From Candidatus Gottesmanbacteria bacterium GW2011_GWC1_43_10 (GTDB lineage: Bacteria > Patescibacteriota > Microgenomatia > UBA10105): 43,799 bases of DNA. The number at the start of each line of letters is the position of its first letter. Within the stretch, counting starts at the first letter, position 1. Positions 1,240 through 41,500 of this stretch are shown piece after piece. The stretch spans positions 1 through 43,799 of the forward strand of contig LCEX01000011.1 in NCBI GenBank assembly GCA_000995415.1, in the 5' to 3' direction. The notes under the pieces are model-generated. The model did no database searches and was not told the DNA's origin. It saw only the letters and a program-made list of their open reading frames with translations. The position numbers and the translations under genes are program-made.

Positions 1240-2412
1240 CTATTTTTGGCGGGTGTGATATTTTTCCTCTACAAAATCCCGCATTTTCTTTTTAAAGACT
1301 TGTGTCGAGAATTTTTGAGCTTGTTTAATACAAGTTTCCGGATCAAATCGAAATCTCTCAAATTCCTTTACTACTTTTACTACTTCTTCTACTTCAGGTT
1401 TATTGAAAAATAAACCTGTTCTACCTTCAATTATTGTTTCCGTCACTCCCCCTTGCCTTAGCGCAATCACCCCCACACCATAACTCATTGCCTCAACCGG
1501 CACCATGCCGAAATCTTCTTCCAAAGCGCAAAAGATCAGGGCTTTGGCACCTTTATACAATTTAGCGAGTTGTTCATCTGACACCGATCCCAAAAATTCA
1601 ATCGTCGGACCGGAAATTGCCCGCAATTTCCCTTCTTCTCTTCCGGTTCCGACAATCTTTAATGGTAATTTAAGTTCGTTACACGCCGCAATCGCCAGAT
1701 CAACTCTCTTGGCATACGTGAGTCTCCCCACCGATAAGTAATAACTCTTATTAATAACGCCCCCTAACCCCCTCTTACCAAGAGGGGGAATGATCCCTCC
1801 CTTCGTAAGGGAGGGTTGGGGTGAGTTAGTTTCAATTTTCACTGGTGGATATATAACAGTACTCTCCCTTCTATAGAATTTCTTGATTCGCTCCCGCGTC
1901 GTTTCCGAATTGGCTACCAACTCATCAACCCTTTGAGCTGTGGCAAAATCATACGACCGTAAAAACGGATTAATAACTACACCATAAGCTTTTGCAAATG
2001 GTGACTGTGCCACAGATCCAGTGGGATAACCATATAAATTTCTGGGTGGATGGTGGATGTAGGAAACATGCAGAGTCTCGGGCCTCGTAACCACTCCTCG
2101 ACACATATACCACCCCGACGAAGAAATCACCACGTCAAAACCACGCAAATCAAAACTTTCCCAAATCAAAGGCGTCAAAAATCTAAGTGGCGAGTGGTAT
2201 TTTTTGACGAACCAATTATGCTGCACCCAACTGGTCCGTATATCCATCGACTTGAATAATTCGACTTTACCCTCCGGGGCTTTAGCGAAGGAGGGCCAAT
2301 CCACAAACGCCGTATAAAGCGGCGCCTCAGGATACATCTCATGTAAAACTTCCACCACCCTCTCCGCTCCCCCATATTCTCTTAAGTAATCATGAACTAA
2401 AGCTATTTTCAT
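1240..2412 (-). CDS. Glycosyltransferase, GT4-like
   Basis: MKIALVHDYLREYGGAERVVEVLHEMYP N-terminus and C-terminal EEDFGMVPVEAMSYGVGVIALRQGGVTETI motif; contains in-frame palindromic insertions. Confidence 0.9.
   Translation of the reverse strand: MKIALVHDYLREYGGAERVVEVLHEMYPEAPLYTAFVDWPSFAKAPEGKVELFKSMDIRTSWVQHNWFVKKYHSPLRFLTPLIWESFDLRGFDVVISSSGWYMCRGVVTRPETLHVSYIHHPPRNLYGYPTGSVAQSPFAKAYGVVINPFLRSYDFATAQRVDELVANSETTRERIKKFYRRESTVIYPPVKIETNSPQPSLTKGGIIPPLGKRGLGGVINKSYYLSVGRLTYAKRVDLAIAACNELKLPLKIVGTGREEGKLRAISGPTIEFLGSVSDEQLAKLYKGAKALIFCALEEDFGMVPVEAMSYGVGVIALRQGGVTETIIEGRTGLFFNKPEVEEVVKVVKEFERFRFDPETCIKQAQKFSTQVFKKKMRDFVEEKYHTRQK
1759..1830. repeat. REP-like palindromic repeat inside glycosyltransferase CDS
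   Basis: ccccctaaccccctcttaccaagagggggaatgatccctcccttcgtaagggagggttggggtgagtta; same family at 2418-2487, 2862-2948, 3134-3208, 3473-3512, 3725-3821. Confidence 0.85.
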
Positions 2413-4808: not shown

Positions 4809-7800
4809 TTAGGAATTAGCCGGAGAGGAAACGTAAGCGGGGCGGGTCCTGCCCATCAGTTTTTCAAATTCATCGCCTTCCAAAGTTTCTTTTTTGACAA
4901 GTTCGGCAGCTACATCATCCAATCTTTTGCGTAATCTTTTAAGTACTGCATAAGCGGTTTTGTAGCCGGCATCGATAAGTTTCTTGACTTCACCATCAAT
5001 TTTGGCCATCATTTCCGGAGAAATTTGCGGCGTCTCATAATAGGATTTCCCCCACTCGGTCACATCCATTTGCGGCCCGAAATTGATGGGACCTATATCA
5101 CTCATCCCAAATTCCACCACCATTTGCCGGGCGATATTGGTAGCTTTATCAATGTCACTTGAAGCGCCGGTTGTCAGTTCATGAAAAACCAGATCCTCGG
5201 CTGCCCGGCCGCCCAACATCGAAGCAATCTGATTAACGAGCCTGGTTCTGGTTTCATGTACGCGGTCTTTGGCTGGAGGAATGAGCGTAAACCCGAGTGC
5301 CATACCACGGGAAACGATACTGATCCGATGCACCGGATCCATATACGGCAAATCATAGGTGACGATCGCATGTCCGGCTTCATGATAAGCAGTCATTTTG
5401 CGATCCATATCAGACTGCAGTCGTTTTTTCTCAGGACCGAGTTTCACTTTGGTGGCGGCTTCTTCCAAATCTGCCATGGAGATAGCCCGTTTGTCAGCTC
5501 TGGCTGCTCCTATAGCTGCCTCATTAAGCATATTTTCCAGATCTGCTCCGCTAAATCCGACCGTGCGTTTGGCAACCTTGTCCCAATCGACATCTTTTTC
5601 AAACGGTTTGCCTTTCATGTGGATACCCAGAATGGCTTTTCTCCCTTCAATATCCGGCATGTCCAAAATCACCCTTCGGTCAAACCTACCCGGGCGAAGT
5701 AACGCCGGATCAAGTAAGTCTCCGCGGTTGGTGGCGGCAATCACCACCACTTGCTCATTTGGTGCAAACCCATCCATTTCCACTAAAATCTGGTTTAGGG
5801 TCTGTTCCCGCTCATCATGTCCGCCCATCACTCCGACACTGCGCATCCGGCCGATAGCATCAATTTCATCGATGAAAATGATCGCCGGCGCGTTTTTCTT
5901 GGCGGTCAAGAAGAGATCTCTGGCGCGTGAAGCTCCCACGCCCACGAGCATTTCCATAAATTCGCTACCTGCGATAGAGAAAAAGGGCACATTGGCTTCC
6001 CCGGCTACAGCGCGGGCTAAAAGAGTATTATGGTTTATGAATCCGTTACCCAAGAAACTATGTGTTTGTGGAACAGTAAAGTCATATACACGTTCATACC
6101 CCGCCTCTACCCCTACCACTCTTGAAAAAAATAGTTTTGCCTCAAGTAAACTCCGCAAATATTCAAGATGTGGAATCTCCATGCTATGAGAACTGGCGTA
6201 TTCAACATACTCGGTGAGTGTTTGTCGCGAAACTCGCATCCGGCGGCGGACTTTATCTATAGTTTTAGAAAGTTTCTCTCCACTTAACTTCTTTACTGAT
6301 AACGCTCGCCAGGATTCTTCAACCAATTGAGCAATACCAGGAATGACATCGACATTTGTATTAACTCGAGTCATCTTAAGCAGATATTTCTCAACTAATT
6401 CTTGTTTACGCTTTAATCTAAACCCTACGGTTTTACCGAAAGCCACCAACGCAGATCCGGTCATAGTTATCCGATATACGCTCCGCTGGTATCCATTTTC
6501 TCTTTTGCCTTTTATATTTAGAGCTGCAACTATGCCTAAATTTAGAAGCATCATGTGTACCTGTCGTGCCATTTTTTTACTTACTGTCGTATATTCAAAT
6601 TCTGCTCGGGTTTTACCGATTGCAGCGTCAGTATCAAACAACCCTTGAAGAAATGAGGTTTGGACCGATTTTGGAGCTTGAAGAATTGTAGGTGGTATAA
6701 TTTTGTCAAAAGAGAGCAAATAAGACATCCCCATCTGATATAAGTATCTTTTAAAATCCCAGCTTGCAACTAAATACGATTGACCGTTGGTAGTGATAGC
6801 GCTACTTTTGAATCGTTTCGTCACGTAAGACTTAAAAAAACTAATGATCTCCTCATCTATGCCAGTCAAACCGATCCTACTGGAATGGCTTAAGTTTCCA
6901 TCCCCTGTAAGAATTCCCATCAGATAGGCCGTATCCTGATCAACCAACTCAAGATTTCCAAAACTATTTCTCCCAAACTGAATCGCAACTTGATCGCCAG
7001 GCAAAATATCCTCCAGCTTTCGGAATTTCAAAACTCCATCACTTGTCATTACGACGACCGGATGTTCTGGTGTACCGTCGAGAGAGAATCCTTGTGCAAG
7101 CTGGATTTTGATAGTTTTCTGTTCCCCTAAGTCATACCAATGAGAGGCAAATCTCTCCTCCGAAAGAGTATCGTCAACATTGAAACTTGCAAGACCTGCA
7201 CCATGTACCTTATGTGACTGGGGATCTACGTAGTAGTAACGAGGTACTTCATGGATCTCCATAAGTCCTTTGTTTGTCCACACCATCGTATCACCAGTAA
7301 CACATTTTCCTGTCCCAGCAGGCCCAACTAAAATTACACCTTTGGGAGTCCGGGCTCCAAGTGCCCGATATTTACCCGGGTGTTTCAAAAAGTCGACGAC
7401 TTCCTCAAGTTCCCGCTTGGCTTCATTGACTCCGGCGACATCAGCGAAGGTGATCCGCGGATGGTCTTTGTTAAACAGTTTTGCCCGGGACTGGCCGAAA
7501 GAGAAAATATTATCCTGAGCGCCTCTGGCTTGGCGGATGAGAAACAAAAAGAAAACGATAGTTAAAACGAGCGGCAAAACATTGGACAAAAGTGATACCC
7601 AAACTTGACCTAAGGACGTATCTTTGATTTTGACTTCTACTTGCGCCGGGTCGATTTTGGCCGACTCAAAAATTTTATAAATTGAGTCTTGGGGCTCTTT
7701 GCGGGAAGTCGCCTCTTCCCCATCTTTGTAACTAACCTTTAGCTTGACTTCTTCGACTTCGATTTTGGATACTTTGCCGTCTTTGACTTCGGTTAGGATC

Positions 7801-7988
7801 GTGGACAAAGGTTTCTCCTCCAACACCCGCGGCGATTGCACCACTGACATCAAAAAGGAAAATGCCAGAAATCCGATAAATAAGATGAGGAAGATGTTTT
7901 TCAAATTCAGGTTGAGCCGAAACTCCACCTTTTTGACTTTCCGGCCATTTTTGCCATTACCATTCATTTGTTCCATAGAAGTCTCCAA
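4809..7988 (-). CDS. ftsH: ATP-dependent zinc metalloprotease FtsH, with internal intein
   Basis: AAA Walker A GPAGTGK split by intein; [16 protein letters not shown] zinc-binding site. Confidence 0.95.
6027..7304 (-). other. Intein with LAGLIDADG endonuclease domain, 426 aa, in FtsH
   Basis: [17 protein letters not shown] (block A), [10 protein letters not shown] (block B), [10 protein letters not shown] and [10 protein letters not shown] (dodecapeptides), [24 protein letters not shown] (blocks F/G). Confidence 0.93.
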
Positions 7989-8611: not shown

Positions 8612-10702
8612 TTATCTCACCTTTGCTCCCACCGGCAACCCTTCGGCGGTCACAAACACCGGTTTTTTTGCTCCATGAACGCCAAATGGCAATTCATCAC
8701 CGCCCGCTTCGCCGCGAGGCGAGTCAACCGCTAGGATCATTCCTTGAGATTCTTCGTTCATCATTTTTCGGGGCAAAAGATTGAAAACGAACAAAAACTT
8801 CTTATCATTAAAGTCGAGAGCTGTATATCCAAACGGTCTGACACCGGTAAAAATGGTCCGTAAACCCATGGCGCCAAAGTCAACCGTGAGTTTAATCAGT
8901 TTTTCGCTTTTAGGGACATCGATTGCCTCTTTGACCAACCCCACTCGCATTTCGACTCTGGCAAAATCGTCAATGGTGATGACGTTGTTCCCGATCCCCG
9001 TCATCTTGGCTTGTCCAGAGCCTGTCCCGAACTCGATTCGGGAATCCTTTCTTGTTCCGGATTCTGGATGCGCCTGCGGCTTACCAGAATGACTAGAAGA
9101 ATAACTAAAAAACGAGTAACTGTTCGTCAACCCAACTGCCTCGCGCACTTCATTCATCGTTTTTACTGCTTCACTGCGGACCCGCGCTGCTCCTGTTTCT
9201 AAAATTTGCCTCACCTTACTCGGACTATTTTTGAGTTCTTGATAATGCTTTCGCGCCGGCGCAAACGTCTTCATGAGTGACTCAAATAAGTATTCTTTAA
9301 CTTCCACGTCTGACACTTTTCCTTCTTGATATAGTTTTTTTAATTGCTCAACCTTACTTGCCCCTCGTAGTTCCGACGAAGTCGAAGACGAATTGGGATC
9401 GCCGAAATGATCTAAGTAAGTAAACACCATATTCCCCTCTATGTGGCCCGGATCTGTAGCCCGAATCCGCGTCGGATCGGTGTAGGTGGAATTGACTTGT
9501 TTGCGAATCACTTCTTCACTTTCAAAAATAGAAATAATATTTCCTAACGATTTGCTCATTTTGCGCTTACCGTCAGTCCCCAGAATCACCGCCACCTCCT
9601 CTGGAATATGCGGTTCAGGCAGTTTGAAAACTTTTTTATTAAACGTTTTATTAAAGCGTTCGGCAATATCACGGGTGATTTCCACATGCTGTTTTTGGTC
9701 CTTGCCCACCGGTACAAGATCTGGTTTGTAAATCAAAATGTCTGCTGCCATAAGGATGGGATATGAAAATAAGCCTACGTTGATTTCCTCATCCATTGCA
9801 TCTCCTGTCTTGAGCGCCTGCCCTGAGCTTTGTCGAAGGGTAGTCGAAGGATTGGCGAGTTTATCTTTATAAGCGTGAGCCCGTTTGATCAACCCCAAAG
9901 GAGTCACGTTATTTAAGATCGACTGAAGCTCAGTATGCATCGGTATGTCTGACTGACGGAAGAAAGTGATGTTTGGCAAATCGGCTCCAACATCACCCAT
10001 GAGAAGCGCGAGTTCATTGAGAACCAATGTCTCTACATTGTGTTCCAACTGTTTTTTATTTTGCACCGTCGTCAGAGCATGTAAATCTGCGACCATCAAA
10101 AAACATTCGTTTGTCTTGGAAAGCGTCGCAAACTGCCGGACCGCTCCTAAATAATTGCCAATATGGAGTGATCCTTCCCCACTGGGAGTGATACCCGACA
10201 AAATTCGCTGTTTGCCAGATTTGAGCATCTCTCTTGATTTTTCAAAATAGGTAAAATCTCCTACCTTACCACCATTTACTTTCACCATATCTTTCGCATC
10301 CATGACCATTCCTAATGTTTTAATCCCAGGTGTCCCGTATGCTTTCCCGACATTTAATACTTTACTATCCACAAAATAAGGGGTATCAAGTCCTACGTAA
10401 GGAACTAACCCTACGTCCGTTCCTAAGAAAACTAGTTCTTCTTTAGTTGCAAAAATAAGCTGTTTAACCCCTGCTAATTCTCTCAGTTTCTTCTCATCTA
10501 TTTGAGTATCTCCACGTTTGGTTACAGCTATCAATCCCTTCTCTGTTTTATAAACGATCGTTGCCATTGCATGTTCTAAAGTGTCTTTATGGAATGCCGT
10601 ATGGTCAGTAATAGTCATCGGTAAATCTTCAGGCAATGGAATAAACCGATATGTAACTCCGGCAGCTTTTAATGTATGTTCAACTCTGTCTTGTATATTC
10701 AT
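8612..10702 (-). CDS. trpS: Tryptophanyl-tRNA synthetase fused to N-terminal YbaK/ProX-like domain and C-terminal EMAPII/Trbp111-like tRNA-binding domain
   Basis: SGITPSGEGSLHIGNYLGAVRQF and KMSKSLGN signatures; YbaK-like N-terminus; C-terminal VEMRVGLVKEAIDVPKSEKLIKLTVDFG...FVFNLLPRKMMNEESQGMILA. Confidence 0.9.
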   Translation of the reverse strand: MNIQDRVEHTLKAAGVTYRFIPLPEDLPMTITDHTAFHKDTLEHAMATIVYKTEKGLIAVTKRGDTQIDEKKLRELAGVKQLIFATKEELVFLGTDVGLVPYVGLDTPYFVDSKVLNVGKAYGTPGIKTLGMVMDAKDMVKVNGGKVGDFTYFEKSREMLKSGKQRILSGITPSGEGSLHIGNYLGAVRQFATLSKTNECFLMVADLHALTTVQNKKQLEHNVETLVLNELALLMGDVGADLPNITFFRQSDIPMHTELQSILNNVTPLGLIKRAHAYKDKLANPSTTLRQSSGQALKTGDAMDEEINVGLFSYPILMAADILIYKPDLVPVGKDQKQHVEITRDIAERFNKTFNKKVFKLPEPHIPEEVAVILGTDGKRKMSKSLGNIISIFESEEVIRKQVNSTYTDPTRIRATDPGHIEGNMVFTYLDHFGDPNSSSTSSELRGASKVEQLKKLYQEGKVSDVEVKEYLFESLMKTFAPARKHYQELKNSPSKVRQILETGAARVRSEAVKTMNEVREAVGLTNSYSFFSYSSSHSGKPQAHPESGTRKDSRIEFGTGSGQAKMTGIGNNVITIDDFARVEMRVGLVKEAIDVPKSEKLIKLTVDFGAMGLRTIFTGVRPFGYTALDFNDKKFLFVFNLLPRKMMNEESQGMILAVDSPRGEAGGDELPFGVHGAKKPVFVTAEGLPVGAKVR

Positions 10703-28714: not shown

Positions 28715-30448
28715 ATGGATACAAAAGATATACAGATTAAATATATTGGTTATGCCCGTAAAAGTTCTGAGGATAATAAAGAACGACAGGCCGCCTCTCT
28801 ACCCGAGCAGCTTTATATTCTCGAGGGTATAAAGTCGCGACACAAACTCCGAATAGTAGAGACGCTTCAGGAATCACGCTCAGCGCACGAAAAAGGTAGA
28901 CCGATATTCGAGAACATGATTACTCGTATCGAAAGTGGTGAGGTTAACGCCATACTTACCTGGCATCCCAACCGTTTAGCACGCAATATGACTGACGGCG
29001 GGAAAATCATCGACATATTTGATACCGGAAAACTCCTTGAGCTTCGTACTCCATCTCGAACCTATCACAATACCCCAGAGGATAAGTTTATGCTTACGCT
29101 TGAGTTTGGATTATCAAAAAAAGATTCAGACGATAAAGCTATCGTGGTTAAACGCGGCATGGACAAAAAATGTCGTGATGGTTGGCGACCTGGAGTAGCG
29201 CCACAAGGCTACCTCAATGACAAAGCGACTGAAAGCGGATTCCGGCGAGTTTTAGTCGATCCAGAACGTCTACCGTTTATCAAAAAGATATTTGAACTGT
29301 TCAGAGGCGGTACTTCTGTAAATGAAATCAACCGGATTGCCAAAGATGAGTGGGGTTATCGAACACGACAAAAAAGACGTTGCGGCGGCGGCCCGTTATC
29401 TATCAGTATGATTTACAAAATCTTGGGTTGTGCATTTTACTGTGGTAAGTATGAGTATCCGGAAGGCAGCGGACAATGGTATGAAGGTAAACATGAGACG
29501 GCAATCAGTGAGCAGTTGTTTGAAGAAGTGCAGGTAATTCTCGGACATAGAAGTCAATATAAACTTAAACACCACGATTATGCGTATACCTCACTTATAA
29601 AGTGTGGCTTTTGTAAATCCTCTATCACCGCAGAGCAAAAGTGGCAGTGTATTTGCCGCACCTGCAAACTGAAATTCTCGCTTACTAAGAAAAACAAAGA
29701 GATTTGTCCGGGGTGTCAAACTCGAATCGACCACATGAAAAATCCTAAAATTCTACATTACGTTTACTATCGCTGTACTCGACGTAAAAATCCGTCATGT
29801 AGACAGCGTGGATTGCGAGTCGACCTATTGGAAAAGCAGGTTGATAGTGAACTTGCCACACTTGAGATACCGCTCGGCTTTGTTGAGTGGGCTATTAAGC
29901 AAATAAATGCCATGAATGAGGGTGAACGGGATTTTCGCGAAAACACTATTAAGTCTTTAACCAGCTCTCATTCCGATGCTCGAAAACGGTTAGACAACTT
30001 AATAAAACTTAAGATTTCGCCTCTGAATAGTGACGGCAGTCTTTTATCCGATGAGCAGTTCAAAGAACAGAAGCTGACCTTGGAAGCAGAAATAAAGGGA
30101 TTAGATAAACAGATGGGTAATGTTGACCAGCGAATGTTTCAAGTAGCCGAGGAAATAAATGAGAAGTTTACGTTTGCGGCTCAAGCACGGAAAAGATTTA
30201 CTACAGGCGACCTGCAAACTAAGCGGCAAATACTCGAACAGTTAGGATCGCACCTAACTTTACAGGACAAAATATTGCGTATTGATAGCCCAATCTCATT
30301 CTTGACCATTAAAAAGATGAAGAAAGAGTCTCCGGTGATAACAGAAATGCTCGCACCTAACAAACAGAACGTCCCAATAACAAAAATAGAGGCTTTTGAG
30401 GCCTCTATTCCTACTATGTTGCGGGGCCGGGAGTCGCGCCCGGCCTAG
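28715..30448 (+). CDS. Large serine recombinase
   Basis: IGYARKSSEDNKERQAASLPEQL catalytic region, recombinase domain, zinc ribbon, coiled coil; ATG at 28715 preferred over track start 28640. Confidence 0.92.
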   Translation: MDTKDIQIKYIGYARKSSEDNKERQAASLPEQLYILEGIKSRHKLRIVETLQESRSAHEKGRPIFENMITRIESGEVNAILTWHPNRLARNMTDGGKIIDIFDTGKLLELRTPSRTYHNTPEDKFMLTLEFGLSKKDSDDKAIVVKRGMDKKCRDGWRPGVAPQGYLNDKATESGFRRVLVDPERLPFIKKIFELFRGGTSVNEINRIAKDEWGYRTRQKRRCGGGPLSISMIYKILGCAFYCGKYEYPEGSGQWYEGKHETAISEQLFEEVQVILGHRSQYKLKHHDYAYTSLIKCGFCKSSITAEQKWQCICRTCKLKFSLTKKNKEICPGCQTRIDHMKNPKILHYVYYRCTRRKNPSCRQRGLRVDLLEKQVDSELATLEIPLGFVEWAIKQINAMNEGERDFRENTIKSLTSSHSDARKRLDNLIKLKISPLNSDGSLLSDEQFKEQKLTLEAEIKGLDKQMGNVDQRMFQVAEEINEKFTFAAQARKRFTTGDLQTKRQILEQLGSHLTLQDKILRIDSPISFLTIKKMKKESPVITEMLAPNKQNVPITKIEAFEASIPTMLRGRESRPA

Positions 30449-30488
30449 GAGATTATGAGCCTCCTGTGCAACTCTACACTACCCCGCG
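30419..30488 (-). tRNA. tRNA-fMet-like (CAT), degenerate D- and T-loops
   Basis: CGCGGGGTAGTGTAGAGTTGCACAGGAGGCTCATAATCTCCTAGGCCGGGCGCGACTCCCGGCCCCGCAA: C1xA72 initiator mismatch, loop CTCATAA; T-loop CGCGACT lacks TT. Confidence 0.6.
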
Positions 30489-30753: not shown

Positions 30754-30825
30754 GCCAGCGTAGCTCAGGGGTAGAGCAGTGTCTTCATAAGGCATGGGTC
30801 GGGGGTCCGAATCCCTCCGCTGGCA
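30754..30825 (+). tRNA. tRNA-Met (CAT)
   Basis: GCCAGCGTAGCTCAGGGGTAGAGCAGTGTCTTCATAAGGCATGGGTCGGGGGTCCGAATCCCTCCGCTGGCA; full cloverleaf. Confidence 0.9.
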
Positions 30826-30913
30826 CTGAGGTATTAAGAAAATGCAAAACTGCATTTTCTTTCACTCTCATGAGGCTGGTGGACAGTACGAAGTACTGAA
30901 CATAATAGCCTCA
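30826..30913. repeat. Double-hairpin element locus H
   Basis: CTGAGGTATTAAGAAAATGC-AAAACT-GCATTTTCTTTCACTCTCATGAGGCTGGTGGACAGTACGAAGTACTGAACATAATAGCCTCA. Confidence 0.65.
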
Positions 30914-33398: not shown

Positions 33399-33560
33399 GG
33401 GCTTGTAACAAAATAACTTATACAAGCTGCCTCGTCTTTTTGGTGAGCTTCTGCGTTACTGCTCAAGCTCAAGTATACATCGTATACTATCGCTCGCAGT
33501 ACCTTGAATCTCACGCAAAAATACTTCGTGATCTTGCACAACTTATTTTGTTACAAGCCC
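33399..33560. mobile_element. MITE-like full-length imperfect palindrome with 21-bp terminal inverted repeats
   Basis: GGGCTTGTAACAAAATAACTT ... AACTTATTTTGTTACAAGCCC (20/21 complementary), centre GTATACATCGTATAC. Confidence 0.85.
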
Positions 33561-34081
33561 TTTAGTATTTGCAGTTTATCTTCAATGATTTTGGCTTCTT
33601 CCCGACACCAGGGTGAAAAACTCTCCGGCGTCCCTTCGATTTCTTGCAAAAAAACCCGCCACGGCACCCATTTCCAGTCCTGGACTTCGTTCAGATTGGG
33701 CTTGGGATAAGCATAAGACCTTCCTACTAATATCGGGCAAATCTCATTTTCCATTATCCCATTTTGATCGGTAAACTGATAGCGGTAAGGAGCGACCTCC
33801 TCAATCGTGGTAGCTACCATTCCCAACTCTTCCTTGAGCCGGCGCTGGGCTGCTGCGACCGCAGTTTCATCAGGACGCGGATGACCGCAAACCGTGTTGG
33901 TCCAGATATCAGGAAAGGCTTTCTTCCAACGGGATCTTTGGGTGAGCATGACCTCCCAGGTTTGGTTGAAAAGGAAAAGCGAAAACCCGCGGTGCAACCG
34001 GGTGGTTGTCGTGTGAACTGCGTCTTTTTCCGCCCGGCCGATATCCTGATCGTTTTCATTGACTAAAACTACAAGTTCCAT
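33551..34081 (-). CDS. idi: Isopentenyl-diphosphate delta-isomerase type 1 (Nudix)
   Basis: MELVVLVNENDQDIGRAEKDAVHTTTTRLHRGFSLFLFN..., WTNTVCGHPRPDE, RRLKEELGM. Confidence 0.88.
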   Translation of the reverse strand: MELVVLVNENDQDIGRAEKDAVHTTTTRLHRGFSLFLFNQTWEVMLTQRSRWKKAFPDIWTNTVCGHPRPDETAVAAAQRRLKEELGMVATTIEEVAPYRYQFTDQNGIMENEICPILVGRSYAYPKPNLNEVQDWKWVPWRVFLQEIEGTPESFSPWCREEAKIIEDKLQILKGL

Positions 34082-34109: not shown

Positions 34110-34350
34110 AGTGCGCCCGGAATGATTCGAACCCTCAACACTTTGTGTACCTGCCCGCCGCGCTTTTTGTGCGTCCAGATGGATTCGAACCACCGACCAA
34201 CTGTGTATAAGACAGTCGCTCTACCGCTGAGCTATGGACGCGCTTTGGCAGGCGGGTAAGACAAATGCTCTACCGTTGTCAGCCAAAGGCTGATCTGGGC
34301 CAAAGGCCCATCGGCCGTTGGTTGAGGCCTTTGGGCGAAACTACGGGCGC
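34110..34350 (-). pseudogene. Interrupted tRNA gene (Val-UAC or Thr-UGU by junction choice), split in D-loop and anticodon loop
   Basis: GCGCCCGTAGTTT[palindrome]AACGGTAGAGCATTTGTCTTAC[insert with tRNA]ACACAAAGTGTTGAGGGTTCGAATCATTCCGGGCGCA. Confidence 0.65.
34170..34241 (-). tRNA. tRNA-Ile (TAT), by anticodon
   Basis: GCGTCCATAGCTCAGCGGTAGAGCGACTGTCTTATACACAGTTGGTCGGTGGTTCGAATCCATCTGGACGCA; complete cloverleaf, loop CTTATAC. Confidence 0.85.
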
Positions 34351-34424
34351 GCGAGAGTATTGTATCAAAGTATTACTAAGTAGTAAAAGTAGATTTTAGT
34401 AGAAAAAAGTAGGATTTAGGTATT

Positions 34425-39258: not shown

Positions 39259-41163
39259 TTAAGCTAAGATCACACTTCCGCAAGGAGCGCTCAACGAGCG
39301 TTGCCAGATTAGCCGACTTTTACGTTTTGGCCGGATTGGTGTTTGTCCAGTAACGATCCGGTTGGGTCGCTCAAATTGAAACTTGCGATGTAAACGTAAA
39401 TACAACCACCAAAAAATCCACCAATCTAAACTCGCGATTTTGGTTTTCCGCATGGGTTCAATCTGTAGTTTAAATTCGCCTAACCGCGTTTGGGACTCGC
39501 TCCTTGCTTGACCCCAAAAGAACTCTTGCCAATTGCTAGTCAGTCGCTGCCAAATTTGGATAAGTCCTTTTCTGAATCTTCCAACGAACCAGCTTTCAGA
39601 TTCTCTGGAGCTGCCTTGTTGTTTGAGCCATGACAATTGCCAGTTCGGACGTACTTCCCTTTCGGGCCTGACCTTTTTTCTTAATTCTTTCCGAAAATTT
39701 ATGCCTTGGTTTTTATCGGTAAACTTCTTGTACAAATACGCTAGCTTAATTTGAAATTGTTTTAAGAAATTTGTTTTTGTTTCTTGGCGTTTGAGCATAG
39801 ATTCGGGTTTAGTGGCGACTTTGATACGAACTATCTCAGTTCTGTGCAAAAAATAGGTAAATAAAGCTTGCAGTTTTTCCCGGCTGATGTGTAAAAACCC
39901 GGCGATTTTTTCGCGCCCGCGACTGATAGTTGATTTTAGAGGTTGAACTATTGTCTCAATCTTTGCTGGTATGCGTTTACTTAATTCTTTTGGCTGCATT
40001 TTTACCCAAGTAAAGATTTGCCTGACTTGCGTTTTTTTCTGCGTGAATATCTCTACTAACTGTTTTATGTAAGCTCGCCTCTTAGTTTCTGTTTTACTTC
40101 CAATAGTGGATTTAGCTACCGCAGGTTCAGTTCTCTTTATTGATGCAGGTTGGATCAAAAAAACTTGTTTAATTTTCACTTGCAGTTTTTCCCGCCAACT
40201 TAAGTTGGTTGGTTGGGAAAACCTGGCCTCAAGTTGTTTTTGCTGCCGGGTACGTTTGATTTTTTCCGTCATCCAGGCGCTTCCCGCCACCACCAGAGTT
40301 TGCCATAAATTGGGTTTGGACGGTGAAAACAGGGCTTTTTCGGCTACTGGCAACCGGAGTTTTATTTCTTTTCTTGGTTTTGACTCTGCTGATTTTACCA
40401 ATCTTAAATCACGGATAGCTGGAATTTTGTCTGATCCTTGATAGATCAACCGATTCGTGAAATTTACGTCAACAATTTTCTTTTGCCGCACATAATCTCG
40501 GCTTCTGTCCAAAAATCCGCCTTCCGTATTTAGATAAGCACCTTGAGTCTTCACTAACAACAATCCTTCACTGTCAGCTGCGTGATATTTATCGCTACCT
40601 GTATTCTTGCGTAAAACATCGCTGATTTCTTTTCTCGACAAGTCCCGGCCGGCGGCAGCTGCAATATCAAAACTCCGCATCACTACAATTCCATCACTTT
40701 TTACCTGCCAATCTTGCAGATACCGAAATGCACCGTCCTTACCGGCAGCCGTCACCAAATGCTTACTGCCTGCAAGGATCGCTTGTTCCAGTTTTTCTAA
40801 ACGGGCTAGTTCTGCCTCATCAGGGGCAACACCCAAACTTGGACCTAAACTGCGCACCCGCTCGACAAAAACTTCATGAAACATCCTACCATCGAGACTA
40901 CCTCCATCAGCTATTTGTAAACCCTTTTCGGTGATCCGATACCGTGTCTGGAAAGTCGACGTCCGTGATTTTTCTTTGATATGGGAGCGTACATCCTCAC
41001 CGATAGCTCGTCTCGCGATTTTTCGGAGTTCACCCCAACTCACGGTCGCAAGTGAAGTCTCGCTTTGGTTGACTTCTTCAAGTATTCGGTTCCGCGAAAC
41101 AGAGTTGTTCCAGCTATGTCCGCCGCCTCCACCCATATCTCCGATGCCTGGTATGACTTCCAT
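39259..41163 (-). CDS. Large hypothetical basic protein
   Basis: ATG at 41163 (MEVIPGIGDMGGGGGHSWNNS) directly after leader terminator. Confidence 0.7.
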   Translation of the reverse strand: MEVIPGIGDMGGGGGHSWNNSVSRNRILEEVNQSETSLATVSWGELRKIARRAIGEDVRSHIKEKSRTSTFQTRYRITEKGLQIADGGSLDGRMFHEVFVERVRSLGPSLGVAPDEAELARLEKLEQAILAGSKHLVTAAGKDGAFRYLQDWQVKSDGIVVMRSFDIAAAAGRDLSRKEISDVLRKNTGSDKYHAADSEGLLLVKTQGAYLNTEGGFLDRSRDYVRQKKIVDVNFTNRLIYQGSDKIPAIRDLRLVKSAESKPRKEIKLRLPVAEKALFSPSKPNLWQTLVVAGSAWMTEKIKRTRQQKQLEARFSQPTNLSWREKLQVKIKQVFLIQPASIKRTEPAVAKSTIGSKTETKRRAYIKQLVEIFTQKKTQVRQIFTWVKMQPKELSKRIPAKIETIVQPLKSTISRGREKIAGFLHISREKLQALFTYFLHRTEIVRIKVATKPESMLKRQETKTNFLKQFQIKLAYLYKKFTDKNQGINFRKELRKKVRPEREVRPNWQLSWLKQQGSSRESESWFVGRFRKGLIQIWQRLTSNWQEFFWGQARSESQTRLGEFKLQIEPMRKTKIASLDWWIFWWLYLRLHRKFQFERPNRIVTGQTPIRPKRKSRLIWQRSLSAPCGSVILA

Positions 41164-41191
41164 AAAAAAAACCTCCCGGGTCCCGAGAGGC
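41164..41191 (-). terminator. Rho-independent terminator abutting start codon
   Basis: GCCTCTCGGGACCCGGGAGGTTTTTTTT-ATG. Confidence 0.8.
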
Positions 41192-41289
41192 GAAGTTGGT
41201 TGGCAGTTGATAGTAAGTAGTTCGCAATTCAAATAGCAACCGCCCACTGCAAACTATCTACTGCAAACTAAGTTTTCCTGCTCGGGATA

Positions 41290-41500
41290 TATAATAAAAG
41301 CGAGTTCCTGACTCCCGCCATTTCGACGGATCACAGTTGCGGCACAGTCCTCGATTCGCACGAGGTTCCTCAACTTTTACTCAACAATGTTAATGAGTGC
41401 GAGCGTGTGGAAATTTTTGCAGCTCGCATCCGAGGAGGGACGATGCCTTAATGATCAACTAGAGCAACATCCCGATCGAGTTGCGGAGCAAGAAAATTTC
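41290..41500 (-). promoter_or_regulatory. Cobalamin riboswitch
   Basis: Minus strand GAGGAACCTCGTGCGAATCGAGGACTGTGCCGCAACTGTGATCCGTCGAAATGGCGGGAGTCAGGAACTCGC, including B12-box-like AGTCAGGAACTCGC. Confidence 0.88.

Follow-up and report, generated by a model that had tools for sequence, protein, structure and literature searches.

The DNA analysed here, which we call the window, is a stretch of 43,799 nucleotides of contig LCEX01000011.1 from Candidatus Gottesmanbacteria bacterium GW2011_GWC1_43_10, a very small bacterium that has not been cultured. On its minus strand, from 34350 to 34112, a tRNA gene is interrupted in its anticodon loop by another, intact tRNA gene, a tRNA-Ile(UAU); we refer to the interrupted and the intact gene as the outer and the inner tRNA, respectively, and to the arrangement as a nest. 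An earlier reading of the same DNA (the original prediction) had placed an entire tRNA within an insert of the anticodon loop, and this is borne out, as the inner tRNA (anticodon TAT in the DNA) is called by both ARAGORN and Rfam (73.9 bits). The insert is exactly 107 nt long and has the layout CCCGCCTGCCAAAGC-tRNA-GGCGGGCAGG; it is termed element E below. The palindrome of about 60 nt that had been described in the outer D-loop is present as well, and five other near-full copies of it are found in the same genome (93-96% identity). The features of the locus are collected in Table 1.

Table 1. Features of the nested tRNA locus and its surroundings (positions in the window).
Feature	Position	Strand	Basis or remark
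Promoter-like site TTTACT-17-TACAAT with TG, 8 nt 5' of outer tRNA	34359..34387	-	consensus match only
Outer tRNA-Ile(UAU), 5' half, to anticodon base 35 (D-loop insert inside)	34257..34350	-	acceptor and anticodon stem pair with 3' half
Palindromic insert, 60 nt, in outer D-loop	34278..34337	-	dispersed repeat, not related to E
Element E (107 nt), made up of left arm, inner tRNA, a short trailer and right arm	34150..34256	-	exact-removal test on 46 elements; uninterrupted site in genome G425
E left arm CCCGCCTGCCAAAGC	34242..34256	-	identical in other genomes
Inner, intact tRNA-Ile(UAU)	34170..34241	-	only intact Ile(UAU) gene found in own genome
E right arm GGCGGGCAGG	34150..34159	-	sequence reading and arm matches in other genomes
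Outer tRNA, 3' half, one T-stem mismatch	34112..34149	-	pairs with 5' half
Isopentenyl-diphosphate isomerase (idi), just downstream of the nest	33551..34081	-	marks orthologous locus

If both inserts are removed, the outer tRNA pairs at 7 out of 7 positions in the acceptor stem, 4 out of 4 in the D-stem (two G-U pairs) and 5 out of 5 in the anticodon stem. The earlier claim that all stems pair therefore stands for these three, and fails in the T-stem (GAGGG/CATTC), which has one G-A mismatch. Taking out CCCGCC...GCAGG leaves the loop CTTATAC, i.e. the outer anticodon is that of Ile(UAU), the same as in the inner tRNA, and E enters between anticodon bases 35 and 36 (CTTA^TAC) without a target-site duplication. 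A reading as Val(UAC), with the register one base further, was rejected, since C32, the exact ends of E and the cognate pairing of other nests favour Ile. ARAGORN does not call the outer tRNA, and the intron mode that had been recommended did not recover it either. A scan for a T-arm combined with a 7-bp acceptor stem was run on about 1.1 Mb of the genome, which was read in pieces that make up most of it (the assembly is 94% complete). It returned 21 normal tRNAs and 2 long-spaced matches, and since these two are the nest and one chance match, the outer tRNA is more than a product of chance.

The left arm of E is single-copy in its own genome, so the idea that E is a dispersed repeat of that genome was discarded. 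Across 374 genomes of the class the left arm has 62-65 matches, compared to 4-5 for a reversed control. Both arms, spaced 75-105 nt apart, were found in 102 stretches among 84,980 species, mostly in Patescibacteria and in many lineages; some of the two-arm matches in other phyla are coding sequence or come from doubtful bins. E occurs in three forms, namely hairpins of 30-40 nt, copies of about 100 nt whose interior is not a tRNA, and carriers of a whole tRNA, the first two being mostly intergenic. Among 101 distinct elements with usable flanks, 46 contain a tRNA (nearly all of these in Patescibacteria) and 55 do not. The interiors of the copies that we class as type 1 gave no tRNA-like match at permissive thresholds, and we do not regard them as decayed tRNAs. 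Neither does E always land in hairpin loops, as the flanks of the copies without tRNA form 5.9 pairs versus 5.3 for mismatched flanks, though some copies do land there. (G and L numbers are our handles for genomes and loci, respectively.) A contig with a type-1 copy, L118, also encodes a LOOT RNA (RF03000, 79 bits; 1337-1458, minus strand). In L239 (G273) and L248 (G117), a short E hairpin without tRNA lies in the D-arm of a truncated Leu tRNA gene that adjoins an intact Leu tRNA.

The relation between the inner and the outer tRNA was assessed by cutting E out precisely and submitting the joined flanks to ARAGORN. An outer tRNA is then called in 28 of the 46 tRNA-bearing elements, and it matches the inner tRNA in anticodon and strand in 25 of these 28. 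No clear mismatch is found in any of them: in two of the three non-matching calls (L116, L174) the loop is short, and the third (L165) reads AAT versus GAT. Elements without a tRNA gave no outer call at all (0 out of 55), and mismatched flanks gave 42 out of 900. When the cut was shifted by one to three bases the matching count fell to 4-20; since it is the exact cut that gives the best calls, E inserts without target-site duplication. The landing sites are in the anticodon loop (21 cases) and in the D-arm (7 cases), never in the acceptor or T-arm, and tRNAs for Ile, Val, Thr, Arg, Glu, Ala, Leu and Pro are among those found nested. Inner and outer tRNA are always co-oriented, while E itself varies in orientation. 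Fixed ends, the absence of a target duplication and cognate, co-oriented pairing are found together in many lineages, and it is by this cognate rule that the outer tRNA of the window is read as Ile(UAU). The original prediction had not recognised inner and outer tRNA as one and the same isoacceptor, nor the insert as a mobile element of defined ends, nor how widespread the pattern is.

A few individual loci deserve mention. In L278 (G375, at about 8358) a tRNA-bearing E has entered an outer tRNA-Glu at position 10, and the anticodon loop of this outer tRNA additionally holds a short hairpin of a different kind; both insertions look precise. L146 was considered as a double nesting and turned out to be a tandem partial duplication instead. 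Outer tRNAs often contain palindromes unrelated to E in their D- or T-loops (L124, L145, L157, L180, L274, L282, L331 and the one in the window), as if hairpin or tRNA loops were attractors for such sequences.

Related genomes indicate the direction of insertion. The tRNA-Ile(GAT)-Val(TAC) locus of family f7 has the same flanking genes in several genera; genome G197 has a nest at this locus, and the syntenic Ile(GAT) gene of its congener G425 is uninterrupted. The G425 gene is 94% identical to the outer tRNA of G197 (83% identity in the upstream DNA), and as the uninterrupted gene resembles the outer tRNA, the outer tRNA is the resident gene and the inner one the newcomer. An ancient orthologous nest with a selected outer tRNA was rejected for this locus, since congeners have an uninterrupted site. 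Between G197 and G009, a genome of another family in which the nest lies at another locus, the inner Ile(GAT) tRNAs are 95-97% identical and the outer tRNAs 82-83%. Likewise, the inner Ile(TAT) tRNAs of G407 and G001, again from different families, are 90% identical. Near-identical inner tRNAs in different families and an uninterrupted site in a congener are accompanied by decay of the outer tRNA. In genus g78 of the same family, G407, G359 and G086 have an un-nested native gene that resembles a relic in G353 and G406. This relic consists of the 5' half alone, with a D-loop hairpin, and is accompanied by the left arm and an inner tRNA, the 3' half and the right arm being gone; the inner tRNAs of the two genomes are 100% identical. 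The pattern in g78 is one of replacement followed by decay.

At the window's own locus, a tRNA-Ile(UAU) gene lies un-nested directly upstream of idi in G002 (same family) and in G018 (another family), and the G018 gene is 92% identical to the inner tRNA of the window. G001 and G015, which have other flanking genes in common with the window, carry nests at the same anticodon position; the G001 nest, syntenic with that of the window, is decayed, with an outer tRNA that has no 3' half and an intact inner tRNA. Un-nested tRNA-Ile(UAU) genes of L286 (G002), L293 (G004) and L297 (G010) have an unusual T-loop, GGATCGTCACC instead of GGTTCGAATCC.

It had been suggested to look for a second intact isoacceptor; beyond the inner tRNA none was found by a whole-genome covariance search and by ARAGORN on most of the genome. 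TilS gave no match above its cut-off in this genome, and AUA is in use (93 out of 523 Ile codons), so the inner tRNA is probably essential. It begins directly behind the left arm and hence has no promoter of its own. The promoter-like site in front of the outer tRNA would serve both tRNAs equally. A TATAAT-like box is found at about the place of the window's promoter-like site in the un-nested G002, G018 and G425. We also note that no tRNA was found in the 94% complete assembly for Phe, Gln, Lys(UUU), Glu(UUC), Gly(GCC/UCC), Leu(UAA) and Pro(UGG), which points either to gaps or to further interrupted genes.

We propose, with a probability of roughly 0.84, that the resident tRNA gene is replaced from within by a foreign cognate, which arrives on a REPIN-like mobile hairpin cassette, makes use of the old promoter and leaves the outer tRNA dead and decaying. 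In the window, E would be a non-autonomous palindrome resembling REPINs or miniature inverted-repeat transposable elements (MITEs), which, with a complete tRNA as its cargo, entered the resident tRNA-Ile(UAU) gene at the anticodon loop and thereby destroyed the resident tRNA. The inner tRNA, having the same anticodon and strand, would be transcribed from the promoter of the resident gene, freed by ordinary RNase P and 3' processing, and would take over the decoding of AUA, the outer tRNA persisting as a decaying pseudogene. A co-oriented landing in a cognate gene would be harmless and would become irreversible, a landing in another tRNA gene would be harmful, and one elsewhere would be silent and be lost. 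Since an inner tRNA depends on a promoter and does no harm only where it lands in a cognate gene, selection alone could give rise to the cognate rule. Repeated over time, the process would exchange tRNA genes for foreign cognates from within. Transcription from the old promoter, processing, the mobilising enzyme and selection as the source of the cognate rule are the parts of this proposal that we infer. A bolder variant, which we consider rather unlikely, is true homing, in which the tRNA-bearing hairpin would recognise and enter the loop of the cognate gene by its sequence; tRNA genes of Patescibacteria would then be serially overwritten by a selfish element specific to tRNAs, and some outer tRNAs (Glu) might also mature.

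Five observations weigh against the replacement proposal. The Glu(CTC) nests of G316 and G362 are syntenic and agree in site and arms, yet their outer tRNAs differ by compensated anticodon-stem pairs, which means either two independent insertions into diverged residents or an outer tRNA that is still under selection. The fact that 28 of the 46 outer tRNAs still look structurally complete points to young insertions or to some constraint. No un-nested allele highly identical to the outer tRNA of the window was found (best 0.76). No transposase was seen between E arms in the DNA examined, i.e. there is no sign of an autonomous E. Finally, E is single-copy in this genome, and its mobility there would have to be deduced from other genomes.

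The original prediction had left two options for the outer tRNA, namely a dead gene or an unusual maturation in which RNase P and 3' processing free the inner tRNA and the outer halves are joined as in Nanoarchaeum. In the form considered here, the CCCGCC/GGCGGG arms would hold the outer halves together and both tRNAs would be made. The second option draws on the many outer tRNAs that keep all their stems, on the complementarity of the arms and on the compensated changes between the syntenic Glu outers; in addition, the genome encodes a ThpR-type 2'-5' RNA ligase, a family known to join tRNA halves in vitro. The RtcB-type ligase that had been named as a thing to search for was, however, not found in the 94% complete genome, the anticodon itself is split by the insertion, and the arms belong to dispersed hairpins that are present outside tRNA genes too. 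In G001, G353 and G406 the outer 3' half has been lost and the inner tRNA is intact. In the outer tRNA of the window, one T-stem pair is mismatched and the D-loop holds a further insert, an unrelated dispersed palindrome; together with the decayed outer tRNAs at orthologous loci, this supports the option of a dead gene; we regard joining of the halves as highly improbable. A self-splicing or bulge-helix-bulge (BHB) tRNA intron was also rejected, since Rfam finds only the inner tRNA in the insert, and the 107 nt are taken up by the arms and the tRNA, although a splicing endonuclease was not searched for.

An in-place duplication of the outer tRNA, by template switching or recombination at a hairpin and with no foreign cassette, would give the strict cognate rule automatically, and the near-identical D- and anticodon arms of inner and outer tRNA in G239, L108, L140 and L218 are in line with it. 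The identity between inner and outer tRNA, however, mostly lies at 0.65-0.87 and does not exceed that seen among cognates from different genomes, and several inner tRNAs are closer to tRNAs of other families than to their own outer tRNA (G197/G009, window/G018, G407/G001), so that this origin appears very unlikely. All genomes are metagenome-assembled and a few matches come from bins assigned to other phyla (L121 and L192, for example), which may be contamination, yet an assembly or binning artefact is hardly credible: the same junctions recur across dozens of independent assemblies, and syntenic flanks surround several of them. The misassembly that had been raised as a concern is excluded as a general cause by the recurrence of the same arm layout in dozens of other genomes.

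It is instructive to compare E with known systems. Rickettsia palindromic elements and similar gene-inserted hairpins are palindromic repeats that invade genes, as E does, and they are not known to carry a tRNA, unlike E. In the split, trans-spliced tRNAs of Nanoarchaeum and Caldivirga the halves are flanked by GC-rich complementary arms and are joined, being the only copy. In the nests, by contrast, the outer tRNAs decay and an intact cognate lies between the halves wherever the outer tRNA can be called, i.e. the outer halves are not the only source of this tRNA. REP elements (repetitive extragenic palindromes) and REPINs are moved by RAYT (Y1) transposases (PMC3116915). E shares with REPINs two short, inverted, imperfectly paired terminal repeats around an interior, a size of about 100 nt, the lack of autonomy, and dispersed intergenic copies in many Patescibacteria (in its own genome it is not dispersed). 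Y1 (IS200/RAYT-type) transposases are encoded in the genome of the window; they would fit insertion without duplication, and no link to E was found. E differs from REPINs in its complete tRNA cargo and its tRNA-gene target; no RAYT was found beside E, nor was a GTAG-type tag seen. Genomic islands, in turn, integrate in tRNA genes via tyrosine integrases (Islander, PMC4383910). Like E they target tRNA genes, often in the anticodon loop, and the loss is made good by the incoming sequence. Islands, however, carry an integrase and restore the target by a gene fragment, whereas the 107 nt of E leave no room for an integrase, and E supplies a complete second tRNA, around which the outer gene remains split. 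E is best classed as a REPIN-like element that carries a tRNA as cargo and resides in the gene of that tRNA. In the open-access literature, in which papers on palindromic elements were judged by their titles and abstracts, we found no description of one tRNA lying within another.

Several other features of the window are worth recording. An FtsH protease reading frame of 1059 aa (4809-7988, minus strand) contains an intein at about residues 224-655, to which both the N- and the C-terminal intein models match. The tryptophanyl-tRNA synthetase (8612-10702, minus strand) has a fused C-terminal tRNA-binding domain of the MetG type and an extra N-terminal part. A cobalamin riboswitch (41282-41393, minus strand, 44.5 bits) lies just 5' of a reading frame of 662 aa (39259-41247) that has no NCBIfam match. 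Two tRNA-Met genes, about 270 bp apart on opposite strands, are located between a serine recombinase and a XerC/D-like recombinase, i.e. an initiator-like one (CGCGGGG..., 30418-30488, minus strand) below the Rfam cut-off and an elongator (30754-30826, plus strand).

The nests show concretely how foreign tRNA genes may take the place of essential, single-copy ones without a functional gap, and would represent a mobile element that becomes essential on arrival. They would also account for the puzzling occurrence of intact tRNAs between broken tRNA halves in Patescibacteria, where the outer gene is overlooked by annotation tools. As the cognate rule holds in 25 out of 28 cases with no clear mismatch, it makes the choice between targeting and selection directly testable.
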